Positions 35,139-41,759 of a DNA stretch of 48,295 nucleotides are shown here, piece after piece. Origin of the DNA: Candidatus Bipolaricaulota bacterium (GTDB lineage: Bacteria > Bipolaricaulota > Bipolaricaulia > UBA7950 > UBA9294); contig JALTFO010000222.1 of NCBI GenBank assembly GCA_027007005.1, forward strand, positions 1 to 48,295, written 5' to 3'. Within the stretch, counting starts at the first letter, position 1. The number at the start of each line of letters is the position of its first letter. A program made the translations under genes and the position numbers. The notes beneath the pieces are model-generated. The model did not search any database and was not told where the DNA came from. It saw only the letters and a program-made list of their open reading frames with translations.

Positions 35139-36410
35139 CTAGCTTGCCCTATGCAGATTCCTCGCTGCGACGAACGACAGGCCTGCCTTTGTCAGAGCGG
35201 TAGCCGTGCGGTTCAATGCGTCGTGCTTGTCTAGATAGTTTCGCTCGAGATACGGCATCAACCCCCGCTTCTCTATCTCTTCCTTGGGCAGGAAGTACTC
35301 CAGGATGTCCGATGGGTGTTCGCGCTTCTCGTCTACTTTTGGTCCCGCTCCCTCGTGCTTGGCGGAGATGTTCGCTACGTGGCCTGCGAGCTGAACGAGT
35401 TCATCGGTGCGGTCGTACGGCTGGATGACGATCGACTTGTAGGTCTCTGTGATGTGGTGCTCGAAGCGGACGACATCCTCAAACCCGAGCGCCTGGCGCA
35501 TCGGTGCGGTCGCCTCAATCGTCTCGTTGTTCACGGAGTTCGACCAGTTGAAGCCGATGAGCGACGTCGTTCCATCTGGGCGGGCGAAGAGTTTGGCCCC
35601 GATCAATGTCCATAGCGCGGCGTACGGGTTGTCGTTTCCCATGTAGACAGAGATCTTGAACTCGATGTCGACTCCGAGCTTGTGCAGGAAGTAACCGAGG
35701 AGGACCGTGCCTGGGTTGATGTTCAACACCTGTTTGATCCCGTAGGTGGTGTAATAGTGCAGGTACTCATCGAGCCACTGTACCGCGTGATCGTTTGGCT
35801 GACCGACGCCGCCGAAGTAGCCAGTGATCGTCTCCGGGCCGCCGAGGTGAATGTTCGACCCGTCCGTCCCCTTGGTATCGAGCGTCTCCACGTAGCTTGC
35901 CCCGATGATCTGCATCGCCGCCGCGACCGCGAGGATGTCTCCGTTGTCAGCGACCTGCTCCTTCATGTTGCGCACGCGGATGTAACGGCCAGGCATCAGC
36001 TCGCCGTTTTTTATCGCTTGTTTGGCTTCCGCAATCAGCCAGGGAAAAAACTGCAGCGCGCTGATTTCGAGCGTCACCGCGTCCTTTTCATCGAAGCTTG
36101 TTGTTGCAGCGCGATCACCGAGCACCTTCTCCCGGAAGGCATCGATCGAGGTGAATGCGCCCTTGTCGCGCTGCTCTGTCAACCACTCCACATCGGAAAG
36201 ATACGACGATCCGCTCTCGCGCAGGCGGTCGAGGAGCGAGTTAAGGTCGCGCGCGGTGCGCGCCTTGGCGTTGATTTCTTCAGGTGTTCCGTAGCGCTCG
36301 ACCACCTCCAGGAAGCGGCTCACCACCTCGTTTCTCGGATCGAGGAGAAAGTCGTTGATCGCTCGCAGTTGTTTCTCATCTATCCTCAGTCGGTCACGCA
36401 GGTCACTCAT
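35139..36410 (-). CDS. Conserved-looking 423-residue protein of unknown function, coupled to panB
   Basis: I do not recognise the family. The first 125 residues are helical and charged. From about 130 there are strongly patterned segments: RYIRVRNMKEQVADNGDIL, SYVETLDTKGTDGSNIHLGG, ETITGYFGGVGQPNDHAVQW, NPGTVLLGYFLHKLGVDIEF, and FNWSNSVNNETIEATA. They are rich in Asp, Asn, His and Gly turns, as in a metabolic enzyme. No signal peptide, membrane segment or P-loop was found. The ATG at 36410 follows AAGGAGG and lies 13 bases after panB. The tight spacing suggests a role in pantothenate metabolism or one-carbon supply, which is an inference only. Confidence 0.8.
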   Translation of the reverse strand: MSDLRDRLRIDEKQLRAINDFLLDPRNEVVSRFLEVVERYGTPEEINAKARTARDLNSLLDRLRESGSSYLSDVEWLTEQRDKGAFTSIDAFREKVLGDRAATTSFDEKDAVTLEISALQFFPWLIAEAKQAIKNGELMPGRYIRVRNMKEQVADNGDILAVAAAMQIIGASYVETLDTKGTDGSNIHLGGPETITGYFGGVGQPNDHAVQWLDEYLHYYTTYGIKQVLNINPGTVLLGYFLHKLGVDIEFKISVYMGNDNPYAALWTLIGAKLFARPDGTTSLIGFNWSNSVNNETIEATAPMRQALGFEDVVRFEHHITETYKSIVIQPYDRTDELVQLAGHVANISAKHEGAGPKVDEKREHPSDILEYFLPKEEIEKRGLMPYLERNYLDKHDALNRTATALTKAGLSFVAARNLHRAS

Positions 36411-36423
36411 CGTTCCTCCTTGA

Positions 36424-37287
36424 TCACTCGTAGTCCTTGATCATATCCTCGAACTTCTCTGCCTCGCCTTTAAGCATGTGGTAGCAGTACTCGTCAGTCG
36501 GGAAGGCCTCATCCTTGACGTCCTTGACGTAGGCGCGCATCGCATCTGTGACCACCTGCGCTACGTTGGCGTACTTCTTGACAAACTTGGGGGTGAATGC
36601 CTGGAACTGGCCGATCAGGTCGGAGACGATGAGGAGCTGCCCATCGCAGTACGGGCCGGCCCCGATGCTCAGCACAGGGATCCGTAGCTTCTTGGTGATG
36701 AACCCTGCCACCTCTGGTGGTACGGCTTCAAGTAGGAGGAGTTGTGCTCCCGCCTCTTCGATAGCCAAGGCGTCCTTGATCAACAGCTTAGCCGATTCCA
36801 CAGTGCGCCCCTGCGCCTTATGCCCGCCAAGCTGGCCGGAGCTCTGTGGGGTGAGGCCAATGTGCCCGCAGACGACGATTCCCGCATCGAGGATCGCCCT
36901 TATCCGCGGGATGACACGGACTCCGCCCTCGAGCTTGACGCCGTCCACTCCTGCCTCCTTGAGGAACCTGCCAGCGTTGGCTACCGCGGCCTCATTGCTG
37001 GTTTGGTAGCTCAGGAACGGCATATCTCCGAGGACGAACGCAGTCGGGGCGGCTCTGCGCACCGCCTCGCTGTGCACAATGCACTGGTCCATCGTTACCG
37101 GAATCGTCCCCTCGTACCCGTACACGCACATCCCCAGCGAATCGCCGACGAGGAGCATCTCCAGCCCCGCCTCCTCGGCAAACTGTGCTGTAGGATAGTC
37201 GTACGCCGTTAACCAAGTGATCTTCTCGCTTTGGTCCTTCATCTTCTGCAGATCGAGAATCGATACCTTCTTGCGCGTGTTCGCCAT
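36424..37287 (-). CDS. panB: 3-methyl-2-oxobutanoate hydroxymethyltransferase
   Basis: PanB adds a hydroxymethyl group from methylene-tetrahydrofolate to ketoisovalerate, the first committed step to pantothenate. The product has LTAYDYPTAQFAEEAGLEML, VGDSLGM (metal Asp), GDMPFLSYQ (second metal Asp), VKLEGG, GHIGLTPQ and LLLEAVPPEVA with the catalytic Glu. The C-terminus is about 20 residues longer than in E. coli. The start is taken at 37287 because AGGAG sits 9 bases upstream; the ATG at 37296 would touch the ribosome site. panC and panD are not here. Confidence 0.95.
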   Translation of the reverse strand: MANTRKKVSILDLQKMKDQSEKITWLTAYDYPTAQFAEEAGLEMLLVGDSLGMCVYGYEGTIPVTMDQCIVHSEAVRRAAPTAFVLGDMPFLSYQTSNEAAVANAGRFLKEAGVDGVKLEGGVRVIPRIRAILDAGIVVCGHIGLTPQSSGQLGGHKAQGRTVESAKLLIKDALAIEEAGAQLLLLEAVPPEVAGFITKKLRIPVLSIGAGPYCDGQLLIVSDLIGQFQAFTPKFVKKYANVAQVVTDAMRAYVKDVKDEAFPTDEYCYHMLKGEAEKFEDMIKDYE

Positions 37288-37346
37288 GCCGAGCATCTCC
37301 TTTTGTTTGTTGTTTGCCTCGCGTTTGCATTCTATCTTCGGTCGCT

Positions 37347-37913
37347 TCAGGCGAGCAAGTCTAGGCCTGCTTCCCGCAAGAGTAGAACCAGTCGACAGAG
37401 GGGAAGACCCATGACATTGAAGTAGTCGCCGTCGATCCCAGTGATGAATGCTGATGCAATCCCTTGAATTGCGTACCCGCCCGCTTTATCAACGTACTCC
37501 TTCGTATCGAGGTAATGCTCTATTTCCTGCTCTGTAAGATCACGAAACCACACCCTGGTCTTCTCGCACCAGAGACGCACACTGTTATTTTCGTTGCGCA
37601 GGACGCACAAACCGGTGAGAACATCGTGTCCTCTTCCACTTAACGTTTGCAACATCTCCCGGCCCTGGCCGCGCGAGTGAGGTTTGCCAAGGATGTGCCC
37701 ATCGATAACGACGATCGTATCCGCCCCGATGATCACTCCTGTATGATCGGTTGCTACAGTCCGTGCCTTCTCCTCAGCCAGAGCGAGGACCTGTTCCTCC
37801 GGCGAACCGGCAACGTCCTCAACTATCCGGCTCGGTACGACGATGAAGTCGCGAGTGATGCGGGAGAGGATCTCCGAGCGCCTCGGAGAGGCGGAGGCGA
37901 GGATAAGCTGCAT
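37347..37913 (-). CDS. maf: Maf-family nucleotide pyrophosphatase
   Basis: Maf proteins hydrolyse non-canonical nucleoside triphosphates. The 188-residue product starts with LILASASPRRSEIL, and has GADTIVVIDGHILGKP (about 66-81), YVDKAGGYAIQG and FITGIDGDYFNVMGLPL, the usual order. The start at 37913 matches Maf N-termini exactly but has no good ribosome site. A GTG at 37955 overlapping the upstream stop (GTGA) would add 14 residues and allow coupling. Confidence 0.93.
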   Translation of the reverse strand: MQLILASASPRRSEILSRITRDFIVVPSRIVEDVAGSPEEQVLALAEEKARTVATDHTGVIIGADTIVVIDGHILGKPHSRGQGREMLQTLSGRGHDVLTGLCVLRNENNSVRLWCEKTRVWFRDLTEQEIEHYLDTKEYVDKAGGYAIQGIASAFITGIDGDYFNVMGLPLCRLVLLLREAGLDLLA

Positions 37914-37951
37914 GGGATGATCGATAGAAATATGCTTAGCTTGCGCGCAGC

Positions 37952-39052
37952 TCACTGTGTATTAAATGCTGCACTGCTGGAGCCGTAGAAGACCTTGAAC
38001 GGCTGAGTGACATCGATTCCCCTAGGGAGGCGGATCACGCCCGCAAGGATCTGCCCGGCTGGCACTTCCTTGGCTCTGATGAAACCTTTTGTCAGCTCAA
38101 CGAAGGATGCATCGCTGAAGAAGACGTAGTTGGTACCGTTCTGCTGAATGAAGAAGCTCCACGGGGTGAATGGGCTGCCCGTAGGGGATAGCGCCCACAC
38201 CATCACCGCACCCGTTCCAATAAGCGGTTCAAGTGAAGTCAACAGATCATCGCTAAACGACGCATCGCGTACTGGGTCTTTTAGAAGTACGAGAAGGAGG
38301 CGTAGCTCCGAGCTGCGCATGGTGATGTCGAGCGTTTGCACAAGGCTTGGCGGCAGTGAGAAGAGGGACGCCATGCTCTCGGCGGTGAATTCTCCTGTTG
38401 TTAGTGCATCCTGCAAGTCTGTCACTTGAGAAGGAAGGGGAACATTGACCGGGGCGTGCGCAGGGGAAGAGGCCATCCCAGTTGTTGTGGAGGAAACCGG
38501 AGCTGCGTAGGTACTCTTGATGGAAAAAGTCCCCGACTGGCCAGCGTAGGAAACTGTGAACGGCTTAGTGATGTCGATATGTCCGTCCATGAGGAGCAAT
38601 CCCTCGCTACCAGAACCGTAGGATGCTCCTCCAGGATTCATGACAAATGCTCCGGAGAGGAATCCCGCAGAAATCTCCACCCAGTCGGACGGAGTAGGAA
38701 CGAAGTCTGGCACGCCACTCTGAGTAACCTTGAAATCGCCCGGATGGAACGGAAAACTGGACACAACCGATTCGACCGTAGGGTTCACATACAGGACGTT
38801 CTTCCCTACGTAGGGCCGAAGCGTCTCCAGAAGTTTCTCAGAAATCTTGCTTTGGAGAGCTCGGTCAGTGACGGCAACAACAAACACACCCAGCTTAGTG
38901 CCGTTCACCTCGACGTTTAGTGTCGCAAAAAGATCTTGGTCGAGGCCTGTCTTAGAAGCAACTTGCTCGGGCGTGCCAGCAAGCACAACAAGCTGCACGA
39001 GCAAAAGCATCACAAACAGAACATAACCCCGACCCAAGGTATTATTTCGCAT
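37952..39052 (-). CDS. Secreted protein with two duplicated domains
   Basis: The 366-residue product has a signal peptide (about 1-27) and two related halves joined by a Ser/Thr/Pro-rich linker (about residues 190-215). Each half holds a helix with a similar start (SEKLLETLRPYVG versus SDDLLTSLEPLIG), a Phe/Pro-rich strand region, a GFLSGAFV- or GFIRAKEV-like segment, and an ending HIDITKPFTVSYAGQSGTF versus GIDVTQPFKVFYGSSSAAF. So the protein arose by internal duplication. The function is unknown. The ATG at 39052 follows AAGGG. Its stop overlaps an upstream GTG of maf. Confidence 0.8.
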   Translation of the reverse strand: MRNNTLGRGYVLFVMLLLVQLVVLAGTPEQVASKTGLDQDLFATLNVEVNGTKLGVFVVAVTDRALQSKISEKLLETLRPYVGKNVLYVNPTVESVVSSFPFHPGDFKVTQSGVPDFVPTPSDWVEISAGFLSGAFVMNPGGASYGSGSEGLLLMDGHIDITKPFTVSYAGQSGTFSIKSTYAAPVSSTTTGMASSPAHAPVNVPLPSQVTDLQDALTTGEFTAESMASLFSLPPSLVQTLDITMRSSELRLLLVLLKDPVRDASFSDDLLTSLEPLIGTGAVMVWALSPTGSPFTPWSFFIQQNGTNYVFFSDASFVELTKGFIRAKEVPAGQILAGVIRLPRGIDVTQPFKVFYGSSSAAFNTQ

Positions 39053-39093
39053 TATGTCCCTTTGTATTCGCAATGACTACGCGGAAGCGCTAC

Positions 39094-39183
39094 CTAGCAG
39101 CCGCCACCGCACCAGAAGCCAGCGAACGCAAAGATCGCAAATGCCCAGAAGAAAGAGAGCAGGACCCAAGCGCTAATACACAT
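39094..39183 (-). CDS. 29-residue hydrophobic small protein, Cys/Trp-rich
   Basis: A 29-codon frame starts at 39183 directly behind AAGGAGGTG, the best ribosome site in the neighbourhood, and 24 bases after a -10 TATAGT. The peptide begins MCISAWVLLSFFWAFAIF, has one membrane-spanning segment and ends FWCGGGC, with three cysteines overall. It resembles no family I know. Expression signals argue strongly that it is real. It is the first gene before the duplicated secreted protein (gap 41 bases), so it may be its membrane partner or a leader peptide. Confidence 0.65.
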   Translation of the reverse strand: MCISAWVLLSFFWAFAIFAFAGFWCGGGC

Positions 39184-39206
39184 GGTGCACCTCCTTTTGT
39201 AACTTT

Positions 39207-39235
39207 ACTATAGCACACGAGAGCGAAAAAGGCAA
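39207..39235 (-). promoter_or_regulatory. Promoter for the small protein and downstream genes
   Basis: Minus-strand TTGCCT (39230-39235) and TATAGT (39207-39212) are 17 bases apart, with an AT-rich 5' leader of about 17-20 bases to the ATG at 39183. Confidence 0.6.
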
Positions 39236-39282
39236 TAGCTAGGACTTGATCATCTGGACAATAACGCAATCTTTGGGTGCGC

Positions 39283-39310
39283 TTGCCTATTGCTGCACAG
39301 GCTGTACAAT
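39283..39310 (+). promoter_or_regulatory. Candidate promoter for glmS
   Basis: TTGCCT (39283-39288) and TACAAT (39305-39310) are 16 bases apart, about 47 bases before the glmS start. No glmS-type ribozyme core was recognised in the leader. Confidence 0.5.
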
Positions 39311-39356
39311 CGGCAAGAGTTCAGTAGATATTCGAATTGACACAAGGGGGAAATGC

Positions 39357-41162
39357 ATGTGCGGGATATTTGGCATCGTGAAGGATCATGAAGGACCGTT
39401 GGGAGAGACGCTCGTTGGAGCCGCGCGGCGGCTGGCGTATCGCGGATACGATTCTGTCGGTTGCGCGACGATCGCTGATAATGGGAAGATTGACCTGCGC
39501 AAGGACGTAGGGAAGATCGACGAGGTGAACGAGCGGCTCAACTTCAGCGAGATGCGCGGTCAGCGCGGGATCGTCCAGTTGCGTTGGGCGACTTTTGGAA
39601 GTCCATCAAGCGAGAACGCTCAGCCTCACCTCGATTCGGACGGTGATCTTGTTGGTGTCCACAACGGCAACATTGTCAATCACGTCTCCTTGCGCGATGG
39701 ATTCATCGCCGAGGGAATGACTGTGCGCAGTGCAAACGATGGAGAAAGTATCGTGCACGCGGTGGAGCATTATGTCGATCGCGGTGAGGCAATGGTGGAT
39801 GCCATACGTGCTGCTGCGCATGATCTGCAGGGTGACTACGCATTGATTATTGCCTCCAAGGATGACGCGGGAAGCGGTGCTGCGCTGCATGCAGTGAAGA
39901 GCGGCTCCGGCCTCGTTGTTGGAATTGCTGATGGAGCGACATGCGTCTCTTCTGACCTTCCATCGATCCTCCCCATCACGAACAAGATCCTCCGCCTGCA
40001 GGACGGGGAGATGGTCAGCCTGTGGCACGACCGCGTCGAGCTGCGGCGCTTGAGCGACGGGGAGATCATCGAGCGCGAGCCGGAGGTGTTCACCGAAGGG
40101 ATGGATTCAGCAGAGAAGGGAGGCTACGCCCACTTTATGGAGAAGGAGATCCACGAGCAGCCGAAGGCAGCCGCTGAGTTGCTCCACTGGCTCGATGCAT
40201 CGCCATTCGTTCCCCAGTTCTTAGATGCGCTCACTTCGGCCGAGCACCTGTACTTCGTTGGCTGCGGAACGAGCTACCACGCGTGCATGATCGGTGCGGC
40301 GTACTTCAACCGCATTGCGGACATCCCCGCGATTCCCGTCCTCGCACCGCAGTTTACCGAGACGCTCGCGCCGATCCTTACCCCCAATGACACTGTCGTC
40401 TTTGTCAGTCAGAGTGGGGAGACAAAGGACGTCCTAAATGCGCTCAATGCTGTCCGCCCGACTGGAGCGAAGATCCTCGGAGTGCTGAACGTCATCGGCT
40501 CTGCGCTGATGCACTTAAGCGATCACTACCTTCCCCTTGCCTGCGGTTACGAGATCAGTGTCCCTGCGACGAAGACGTTCTTAAACCAGGTCGTCCTCTT
40601 TCTCTACCTGGCCGACAGACTGCGCGCGCACGGGGCTAAGATCGACTGGGGCACGATCCCCGGGATCATCGAACAGACCCTGCTCTCCACTAAAGAAGGG
40701 GCCAAAGAAGCGGCGATAACCCTCAACCCGCACAATGAGATGTATTACCTCGGCTATGGATTAACGCTCGGGGTGGCGATGGAAGGGGCACTCAAGTTGA
40801 AGGAGATCACCTACGCGCACTGCGAGGGGATGCTCAGCTCGGAGTTCAAGCATGGCCCGCTTTCAGCCGTACAGGACGGTTACCCAATCGTCTTTGTAAC
40901 AGCGCCTGACGATGCGGCGATGATGGTGAATCACGTAAACGAGGTTGCTTGCCGTGGCGGGCATCCGATCGCCATCGCTTGTGAAGACGGCCTGCTGCGC
41001 AAGCACGTTGGCCAGTACATTCCTCTCCCCGATGTCGGACAGGAGATTGCAACACTCGTTGCCGTGCTCCCGCTGCAGCTCATCAGTTACTACATGAGCA
41101 TCGAGCGGGGGATCGACCCCGACTTTCCGCGCAACCTAAGCAAGACGCTCACCGTCGATTAG
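39357..41162 (+). CDS. glmS: Glutamine-fructose-6-phosphate aminotransferase
   Basis: GlmS makes glucosamine-6-phosphate for cell wall and lipopolysaccharide. The 601-residue protein begins MCGIFGIV, so the catalytic Cys is residue 2 after Met removal, which fixes the start at 39357 (with AAGGGGG before it). The glutaminase domain has LAYRGYDSVG, LRWATFG and VHNGNIVNH. Two SIS sugar domains follow (FVGCGTSYHACMIG, FVSQSGETKDV, and SSEFKHGPLS), and the end is FPRNLSKTLTVD. Length is standard. It is followed after 6 bases by the exonuclease gene. Confidence 0.97.
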   Translation: MCGIFGIVKDHEGPLGETLVGAARRLAYRGYDSVGCATIADNGKIDLRKDVGKIDEVNERLNFSEMRGQRGIVQLRWATFGSPSSENAQPHLDSDGDLVGVHNGNIVNHVSLRDGFIAEGMTVRSANDGESIVHAVEHYVDRGEAMVDAIRAAAHDLQGDYALIIASKDDAGSGAALHAVKSGSGLVVGIADGATCVSSDLPSILPITNKILRLQDGEMVSLWHDRVELRRLSDGEIIEREPEVFTEGMDSAEKGGYAHFMEKEIHEQPKAAAELLHWLDASPFVPQFLDALTSAEHLYFVGCGTSYHACMIGAAYFNRIADIPAIPVLAPQFTETLAPILTPNDTVVFVSQSGETKDVLNALNAVRPTGAKILGVLNVIGSALMHLSDHYLPLACGYEISVPATKTFLNQVVLFLYLADRLRAHGAKIDWGTIPGIIEQTLLSTKEGAKEAAITLNPHNEMYYLGYGLTLGVAMEGALKLKEITYAHCEGMLSSEFKHGPLSAVQDGYPIVFVTAPDDAAMMVNHVNEVACRGGHPIAIACEDGLLRKHVGQYIPLPDVGQEIATLVAVLPLQLISYYMSIERGIDPDFPRNLSKTLTVD

Positions 41163-41168
41163 CCTACA

Positions 41169-41759
41169 ATGGACACAAGGAAACAGGCGCTTACCGATAT
41201 CATACGCACGCTCGATGGCCAGGACTACGTCATCCTCGATACGGAGACAACCGGCTTAAGCGATCCGGAACTTGTGAGCATCGCGATCATCGATAACAGA
41301 GGTGGCGTGGTTATCGATGAACTTGTCCGTCCAGCAAAGCCCATCGAACTGGGAGCAAGCCGTATAACGGGTATCACGAACGAGACTGTCAGACACAGCC
41401 CCGAGTTTCCAGCAATCTATGAGCGCTTGAAGGAAGCGGTCACTAACAAGCTTGTAGTCATCTACAACGCTTCCTATGATCTGAAGGTTCTACGCAACAC
41501 CTGCCGCCGCTACAACCTTGAAATGCCGCAATTTGAGCACTGGTGCGCGATGGAGTGGTTCGCGCAAGTCTACGGGAAATGGGACAGCTACAAGAAAGAC
41601 TACACGTGGCAGAAGCTCTCCACTGCGGCAAGATACTTCGCGGTCGACCAAGAAGATGCGCACAACGCATTGGGTGATTGCATCACAACGTTGCAAGTCA
41701 TCGAGGCCGGACTAGAGAGGGCACGCAACCTGAGCCCTCACATGGATCTCCTCTTGTAG
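41169..41759 (+). CDS. DEDDh 3'-5' exonuclease (DnaQ-like)
   Basis: The 196-residue product has the exonuclease motifs of the DnaQ superfamily: ILDTETTGL (Asp24, Glu26), ITGITNE, the ExoII motif YNASYDLKVL, and HNALGDC as ExoIIIe with His and Asp. It stands alone without a polymerase or helicase domain, so it may proofread or trim RNA or DNA. It is in an apparent operon with glmS, six bases behind it, which has no obvious functional meaning. Confidence 0.88.
   Translation: MDTRKQALTDIIRTLDGQDYVILDTETTGLSDPELVSIAIIDNRGGVVIDELVRPAKPIELGASRITGITNETVRHSPEFPAIYERLKEAVTNKLVVIYNASYDLKVLRNTCRRYNLEMPQFEHWCAMEWFAQVYGKWDSYKKDYTWQKLSTAARYFAVDQEDAHNALGDCITTLQVIEAGLERARNLSPHMDLLL

Follow-up and report, generated by a model that had tools for sequence, protein, structure and literature searches.

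A candidate family of tiny aromatic membrane peptides encoded ahead of an exported protein in Bipolaricaulota

CydX, KdpF and AcrZ are small partners of membrane proteins (PMC10903887, PMC6005532, PMC7267776). CydX, CcoQ, CcoS and KdpF share a format in which the operon for a larger envelope complex also encodes a single hydrophobic helix of about 30 amino acids (PMC10903887, PMC6005532), and AcrZ, likewise small and membrane-bound, modulates a large membrane protein (PMC7267776). The peptide family described here, which we refer to as the FW-core family, resembles these proteins in format and, like KdpF, is encoded beside a P-type ATPase in some lineages. However, it differs from the CydX, CcoQ, CcoS and KdpF group in matching nothing in Pfam or NCBIfam and no PDB chain, in a much higher content of Trp and Phe and in its partner, an exported protein (c0) without an assigned function. 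The genes that neighbour it are c0, maf and panB, whereas no oxidase or Kdp genes, as would be expected for CydX or KdpF, adjoin it. AcrZ acts on an RND pump and none was identified among the FW-gene neighbours examined; homology to AcrZ was not detected. We therefore put forward only an analogy, without any claim of homology, in proposing that the FW peptide may work in the manner of CydX, KdpF and AcrZ.

A 29-codon gene and its expression signals

The founding member of the family is located in a 48,295-nucleotide stretch of DNA, hereafter the window, from Candidatus Bipolaricaulota bacterium (contig JALTFO010000222.1). The gene occupies positions 39094 to 39183 of the minus strand, with an ATG start codon at 39183-39181 and a TAG stop codon at 39096-39094, and encodes the 29-residue peptide MCISAWVLLSFFWAFAIFAFAGFWCGGGC; the original prediction had left the strand unstated, and the plus-strand reading of the same interval is meaningless in itself. 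The product contains three Cys, three Trp and no charged residues and has a GRAVY of 1.73. Its hydropathy and composition, with approximately 20 uncharged hydrophobic residues, are those of a membrane-spanning segment, and on this basis the window peptide is predicted to insert into the membrane.

A near-perfect Shine-Dalgarno site (AAGGAGGTG, positions 39188-39196, minus strand) lies ahead of the start codon. Further upstream on the same strand, a promoter scan combined with reading of the sequence located the -10 element TATAGT (39207-39212), which is preceded by TG to form an extended -10 (TGcTATAGT), and the scan placed the -35 element TTGCCT (39230-39235) at a spacing of 17 nt. These are the expression signals that the original prediction had proposed, including a promoter described as consensus-like. 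The extended -10 is seen again upstream of the peptide genes of relatives, and the TTGCC -35 recurs in several family members, but the promoter scan taken alone is weak and near background (3 sites found against 1.1 +/- 1.1 expected). An SD-like site precedes 69 of 70 related peptide genes. The extended -10 would give the small gene a promoter of its own, and translation is probably strong.

Searching with the 29 residues recovered homologues in 23 of the 33 genomes of the host's family, with E-values of 1e-9 to 1e-6 between most genera, and gave zero matches at E<=1 in 27 order- and class-level genomes. The three copies from the host's genus encode identical proteins, the pairs differing at 2, 4 and 6 codons, all of them synonymous. 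Among 27 unique copies, some of which are paralogues, pN/pS computed over the aligned 20-residue core is 0.17 (mean pS 0.69, pN 0.12), and pN is lower than pS in all 351 pairs, which are non-independent but uniform in direction. Positional entropy in these copies is 0.43 bits at the first codon position, 0.18 at the second and 1.00 at the third. Stop codons and frameshifts were looked for in the frames of close relatives and none were found. A frame of 29 codons may be a product of chance, or reflect an overlapping signal that yields no protein product, but such an origin has a negligible probability here given the class-wide amino acid conservation, the purely synonymous changes within the genus, the near-universal SD and the low background in the control described below. 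The 29-residue frame is confirmed as a protein-coding gene under purifying selection and, with homologues in most of the host's family and a conserved gene order, the original prediction of a real, undescribed small protein is supported.

The exported protein c0 and its link to the peptide

The genes that follow the peptide in the window are all encoded on the minus strand: c0 (37952-39052), an exported protein with a signal-like N-terminal segment and two copies of a domain of approximately 150 amino acids; maf (37347-37955; PF02545, E 1.3e-61); panB (36424-37296; TIGR00222, E 2.4e-94); and c2 (35139-36410), which encodes a 423-aa protein. The peptide had been predicted to head a group comprising a duplicated secreted protein, maf and panB. 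This is borne out, since the order peptide, c0 and, in third place, maf, usually followed by panB and then c2 in fifth place, holds across most of the host's family. At class-level loci beyond this family the peptide and c0 are found among varied neighbours. Thus, as read from gene order, the constant partner of the peptide is c0 only, with maf and panB following it in the host's family.

Neither c0 nor c2 could be assigned to a family in Pfam or NCBIfam, and nothing was found when a c0 sequence profile was searched against the PDB. AlphaFold2 modelled full-length c0 with a mean pLDDT of 80 and its second domain, which is predicted to have a mixed helix/strand fold, with a pLDDT of 91.5 and a pTM of 0.88. 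Matches of the full model to antibody Fabs, with a TM of about 0.1, were discarded as meaningless. None of the PDB matches of domain 2 reached significance. The best was to the FlaG/FlaF archaellum stator domains (E 9.5e-3, TM 0.32 for the query), too weak to establish a relationship between the folds, and may serve as a lead only. In the rest of the class most c0 homologues consist of just one such domain, followed by a hydrophobic tail at the C-terminus. Homologues from family f4 (for example at loci L095, L106 and L107) have a Cys-rich linker that leads into a short hydrophobic tail, GGFIVPFLLLLLLGL, which lacks a charged end and is possibly a new anchoring signal. For one member of the Bipolaricaulota, a choice between one and two envelope membranes was left undecided (PMC6092417). 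When genome contigs were searched with a profile of c0, 20 loci were returned, most of which are titled Candidatus Bipolaricaulota or Acetothermia; two contigs titled Neomarinimicrobiota and Atribacteria (L112, L118) carry the operon of the host's family and are likely to be mislabelled bins.

Homologues of c0 were present in 58 of 120 relatives and, when a profile was used, in 64 of 100 class genomes. Comparison of the two distributions in the 100 genomes showed that 59 contain both peptide and c0, 5 contain c0 only, 1 contains the peptide only and 35 contain neither (Fisher p 2e-20, a value that ignores shared ancestry). The single peptide-only case (G024) lies at a contig end. Among the five genomes scored by profile as c0-only (G008, G030, G057, G079 and G098), the peptide is present in G057 when the locus is read by eye; in G008, G030 and G098, as also in G028, c0 is at a contig end and the presence of the peptide could not be judged. 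G079 is the sole inspected locus clearly devoid of the peptide and there a diverged c0 immediately follows a promoter and SD of its own. In G086 the peptide frame is retained, but a canonical start codon with an SD was not seen. In family f4, genus g16, represented by 12 genomes of which two are single contigs, is naturally devoid of both c0 and the peptide. As a background control, we examined the 320 nt upstream of 452 genes in the fetched loci for SD-preceded hydrophobic frames of 23-36 amino acids, which occurred ahead of 31 of 48 c0 genes versus 9 of 404 other genes. All nine of the latter carry the FW core, eight being known paralogues and one a mis-called c0 locus, and hence similar frames are essentially absent from other genes.

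The FW-core family and its paralogues

Beyond the host's family, the regions upstream of c0 homologues were examined both by script and visually. At the class-level loci inspected, c0 is preceded by a hydrophobic, Trp/Phe-rich frame of 24-34 amino acids, nearly always with a strong SD, exemplified by MGLLVTIPLWALLFFWWVFWIAAFATWWTRGVLP in f2, MIILDPVLVFLFAFWLIFLVALIIFLAGAGS in f3, MCCGWWLLAFFWFLWLGVFAAWWCCP in f4, MDWWIWLFGFWFWWLVVLLAFLTIP in f5, MEPVTAMVLGFFWSMWAAAFLSFMGCGIC in f6, MKLNSWWFLFFAFWFIFLFVLLAFLVGGL in f7 and MLVTVDAVLLFLFSFWFVFLFSLVSFISF in f9, each located 5' of a c0 homologue. In the alignment, Phe12-Trp13 (window peptide numbering) is at least 90% conserved, making the FW core almost invariant, and conservation spans the whole helix rather than its end alone. 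Thirty-eight diverse members have GRAVY values of 1.05-2.69, a Trp plus Phe content of 30% and no more than two residues per peptide that are charged or His, and a profile built from 38 peptides was positive in 60 of 100 sampled Bipolaricaulota genomes. The window peptide had been characterised as Cys/Trp-rich with a CGGGC tail, which is accurate for its own three Cys and three Trp residues, but the peptides of f2, f3, f5, f7 and f9 contain no Cys and yet keep their position upstream of c0. The Cys tail is therefore lineage-specific, the aromatic FW core being the conserved feature. Searches of the peptide against Pfam, NCBIfam, PHROGs and PDB chains gave nothing usable, only sub-threshold matches of single members; outside the phylum, the searches covered protein-family libraries and the PDB. 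Descriptions of small proteins of Bipolaricaulota were not found in the literature. On the strength of these comparisons the FW-core family is a previously undescribed family of tiny, predicted membrane proteins.

The peptide gene has also been duplicated into other contexts. In four genomes (G032, G004, G016 and G028) a paralogue is located upstream of a gene for a heavy-metal P-type ATPase (TIGR01525, E 9e-187 in G032), and in G032 and G028 a CDF transporter gene is found just upstream of the paralogue (TIGR01297, E 9.5e-63 for G028). The ATPase-linked copies have a promoter-like sequence, GAAAC-N15-G(T/G)GTA, with exact spacing, that is unlike the promoter of the c0-linked copies. This motif, reminiscent of an ECF sigma promoter, was observed at G032 C37, G004 C82, G028 C46, G016 C2 and G020 C32 (L033, L037, L039, L038 and L041, respectively), the copy at G020 C32 having the variant GTAAC-N15-GTGTA upstream. 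Four sites in seven genomes combine TGAAAC-N15-GTGTA with a following SD, and three of these precede FW peptides. The fourth is found upstream of an exported, very Cys-rich protein of 188 amino acids (L227:935-1501, minus strand; G004 C81) that is not accompanied by an FW peptide, which hints that this motif may define a small regulon for envelope proteins rich in Cys. Copies in f5 (G037, G065) and in G020 and G031 precede genes for exported proteins with Cys-rich stretches.

Other copies have no gene downstream on the same strand. The next gene after the solitary f6 copies at G051 C95, G039 C96 and G054 C17 is on the opposite strand. Solitary f6 peptides (L213, L216, L217 and L221) have C-terminal Cys clusters (GCGCGLCC, GCGCGPCC), and several of these copies have in common a TTGACA...TCGATGTAT-like promoter distinct from that of the c0-linked copies. 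In G069 an FW-like peptide gene, a weak match at E 0.04, converges on a gene homologous to that of the exported protein found after the f5 paralogues, an arrangement in which adjacency holds without cis-regulatory polarity.

A small membrane partner and competing explanations

The explanation we favour, with a probability of roughly two in three, is that the FW-core peptide is an uncharged single-pass membrane helix that serves exported or transport proteins as a small partner. One uncharged helix spanning the membrane would fit the lack of charge in the window peptide, the 30% Trp and Phe content and the hydropathy range of the family. A protein partnership fits the retention of the c0 linkage while both sequences diverged beyond ordinary recognition, and reuse of one helix fits the copies found beside other exported or transport proteins. 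We infer that the peptide would insert into the cytoplasmic membrane as a single aromatic-rich helix, whose FW face would pack against the partner protein, usually the c0 product encoded next to it; the hydrophobic tail of single-domain c0 homologues could sit beside the peptide. Copies adjacent to the heavy-metal ATPase or to other exported proteins would each be specialised for such a partner, and the role of the peptide may be to anchor, assemble or modulate them. Counting against this model, adjacency is no proof of contact, and the solitary copies lack an obvious partner nearby.

SecM and MifM are leader peptides with a conserved arrest motif at their end, and the FW gene is similar in being a short frame ahead of an export-related gene. 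It might accordingly be a leader (uORF) whose translation, stalling or membrane insertion controls the downstream exported-protein gene. The peptide gene does come first after the promoter, 20-200 nt upstream of c0, its SD is much stronger than that of c0 in the window and the downstream genes often encode exported or membrane proteins. However, the solitary and convergent copies have no such downstream gene to control, residues are conserved along the whole helix in contrast to the terminal motif of SecM and MifM, and the gap between peptide and c0 has no convincing terminator. Moreover, an Rfam search of positions 37000-41500, which covers known RNA families only, gave no match, and a single fold produced ordinary hairpins only. 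A pure leader peptide is disfavoured by the solitary copies together with selection on the protein, and we regard this explanation as unlikely, although the peptide may have a cis role in addition to its role as a protein.

Still less probable is a metal-binding membrane peptide in which the C-terminal Cys pair (WCGGxC) passes copper or zinc to or from a partner. The paralogues that precede the heavy-metal ATPase, with a CDF transporter close by in two genomes, would suit this explanation, as would the Cys-rich nature of other neighbours and of the f4 c0 linker, but the Cys-free families occupy the same place before c0. We have rejected a Cys or metal role for the family as a whole and consider it a lineage-specific addition at most. 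The size and hydrophobicity of the peptide, and the existence of a solitary class, also recall the hydrophobic toxins of toxin-antitoxin pairs of the Ibs or Hok type. Long-term linkage to one exported protein, a strong, ungated SD and strong conservation make a toxin highly improbable, and no known antisense RNA family was detected in the Rfam search. A bolder version of the small membrane partner, which we offer tentatively and hold to be rather doubtful, is a reusable helper helix peculiar to one phylum that would serve several unrelated proteins as a general factor for anchoring, insertion or assembly, each copy having a dedicated promoter. If true, it would mean that a duplicated FW peptide has been attached to c0, to a heavy-metal P-type ATPase and to Cys-rich exported proteins.

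The recovery of this family shows that a genuine micro-gene can be recognised by reading raw sequence without tools, and that homologues too short for ordinary searches can be reached through their linkage to a neighbour that is itself diverging. Since c0 is a constant genetic partner, the function of the FW peptide is directly testable. For the Bipolaricaulota, the comparisons point to a family of about 30 residues, present in about 60% of the sampled genomes and almost always directly before c0, that Pfam and NCBIfam had missed and that selection strongly maintains across most of this phylum, hardly any members of which are in culture.
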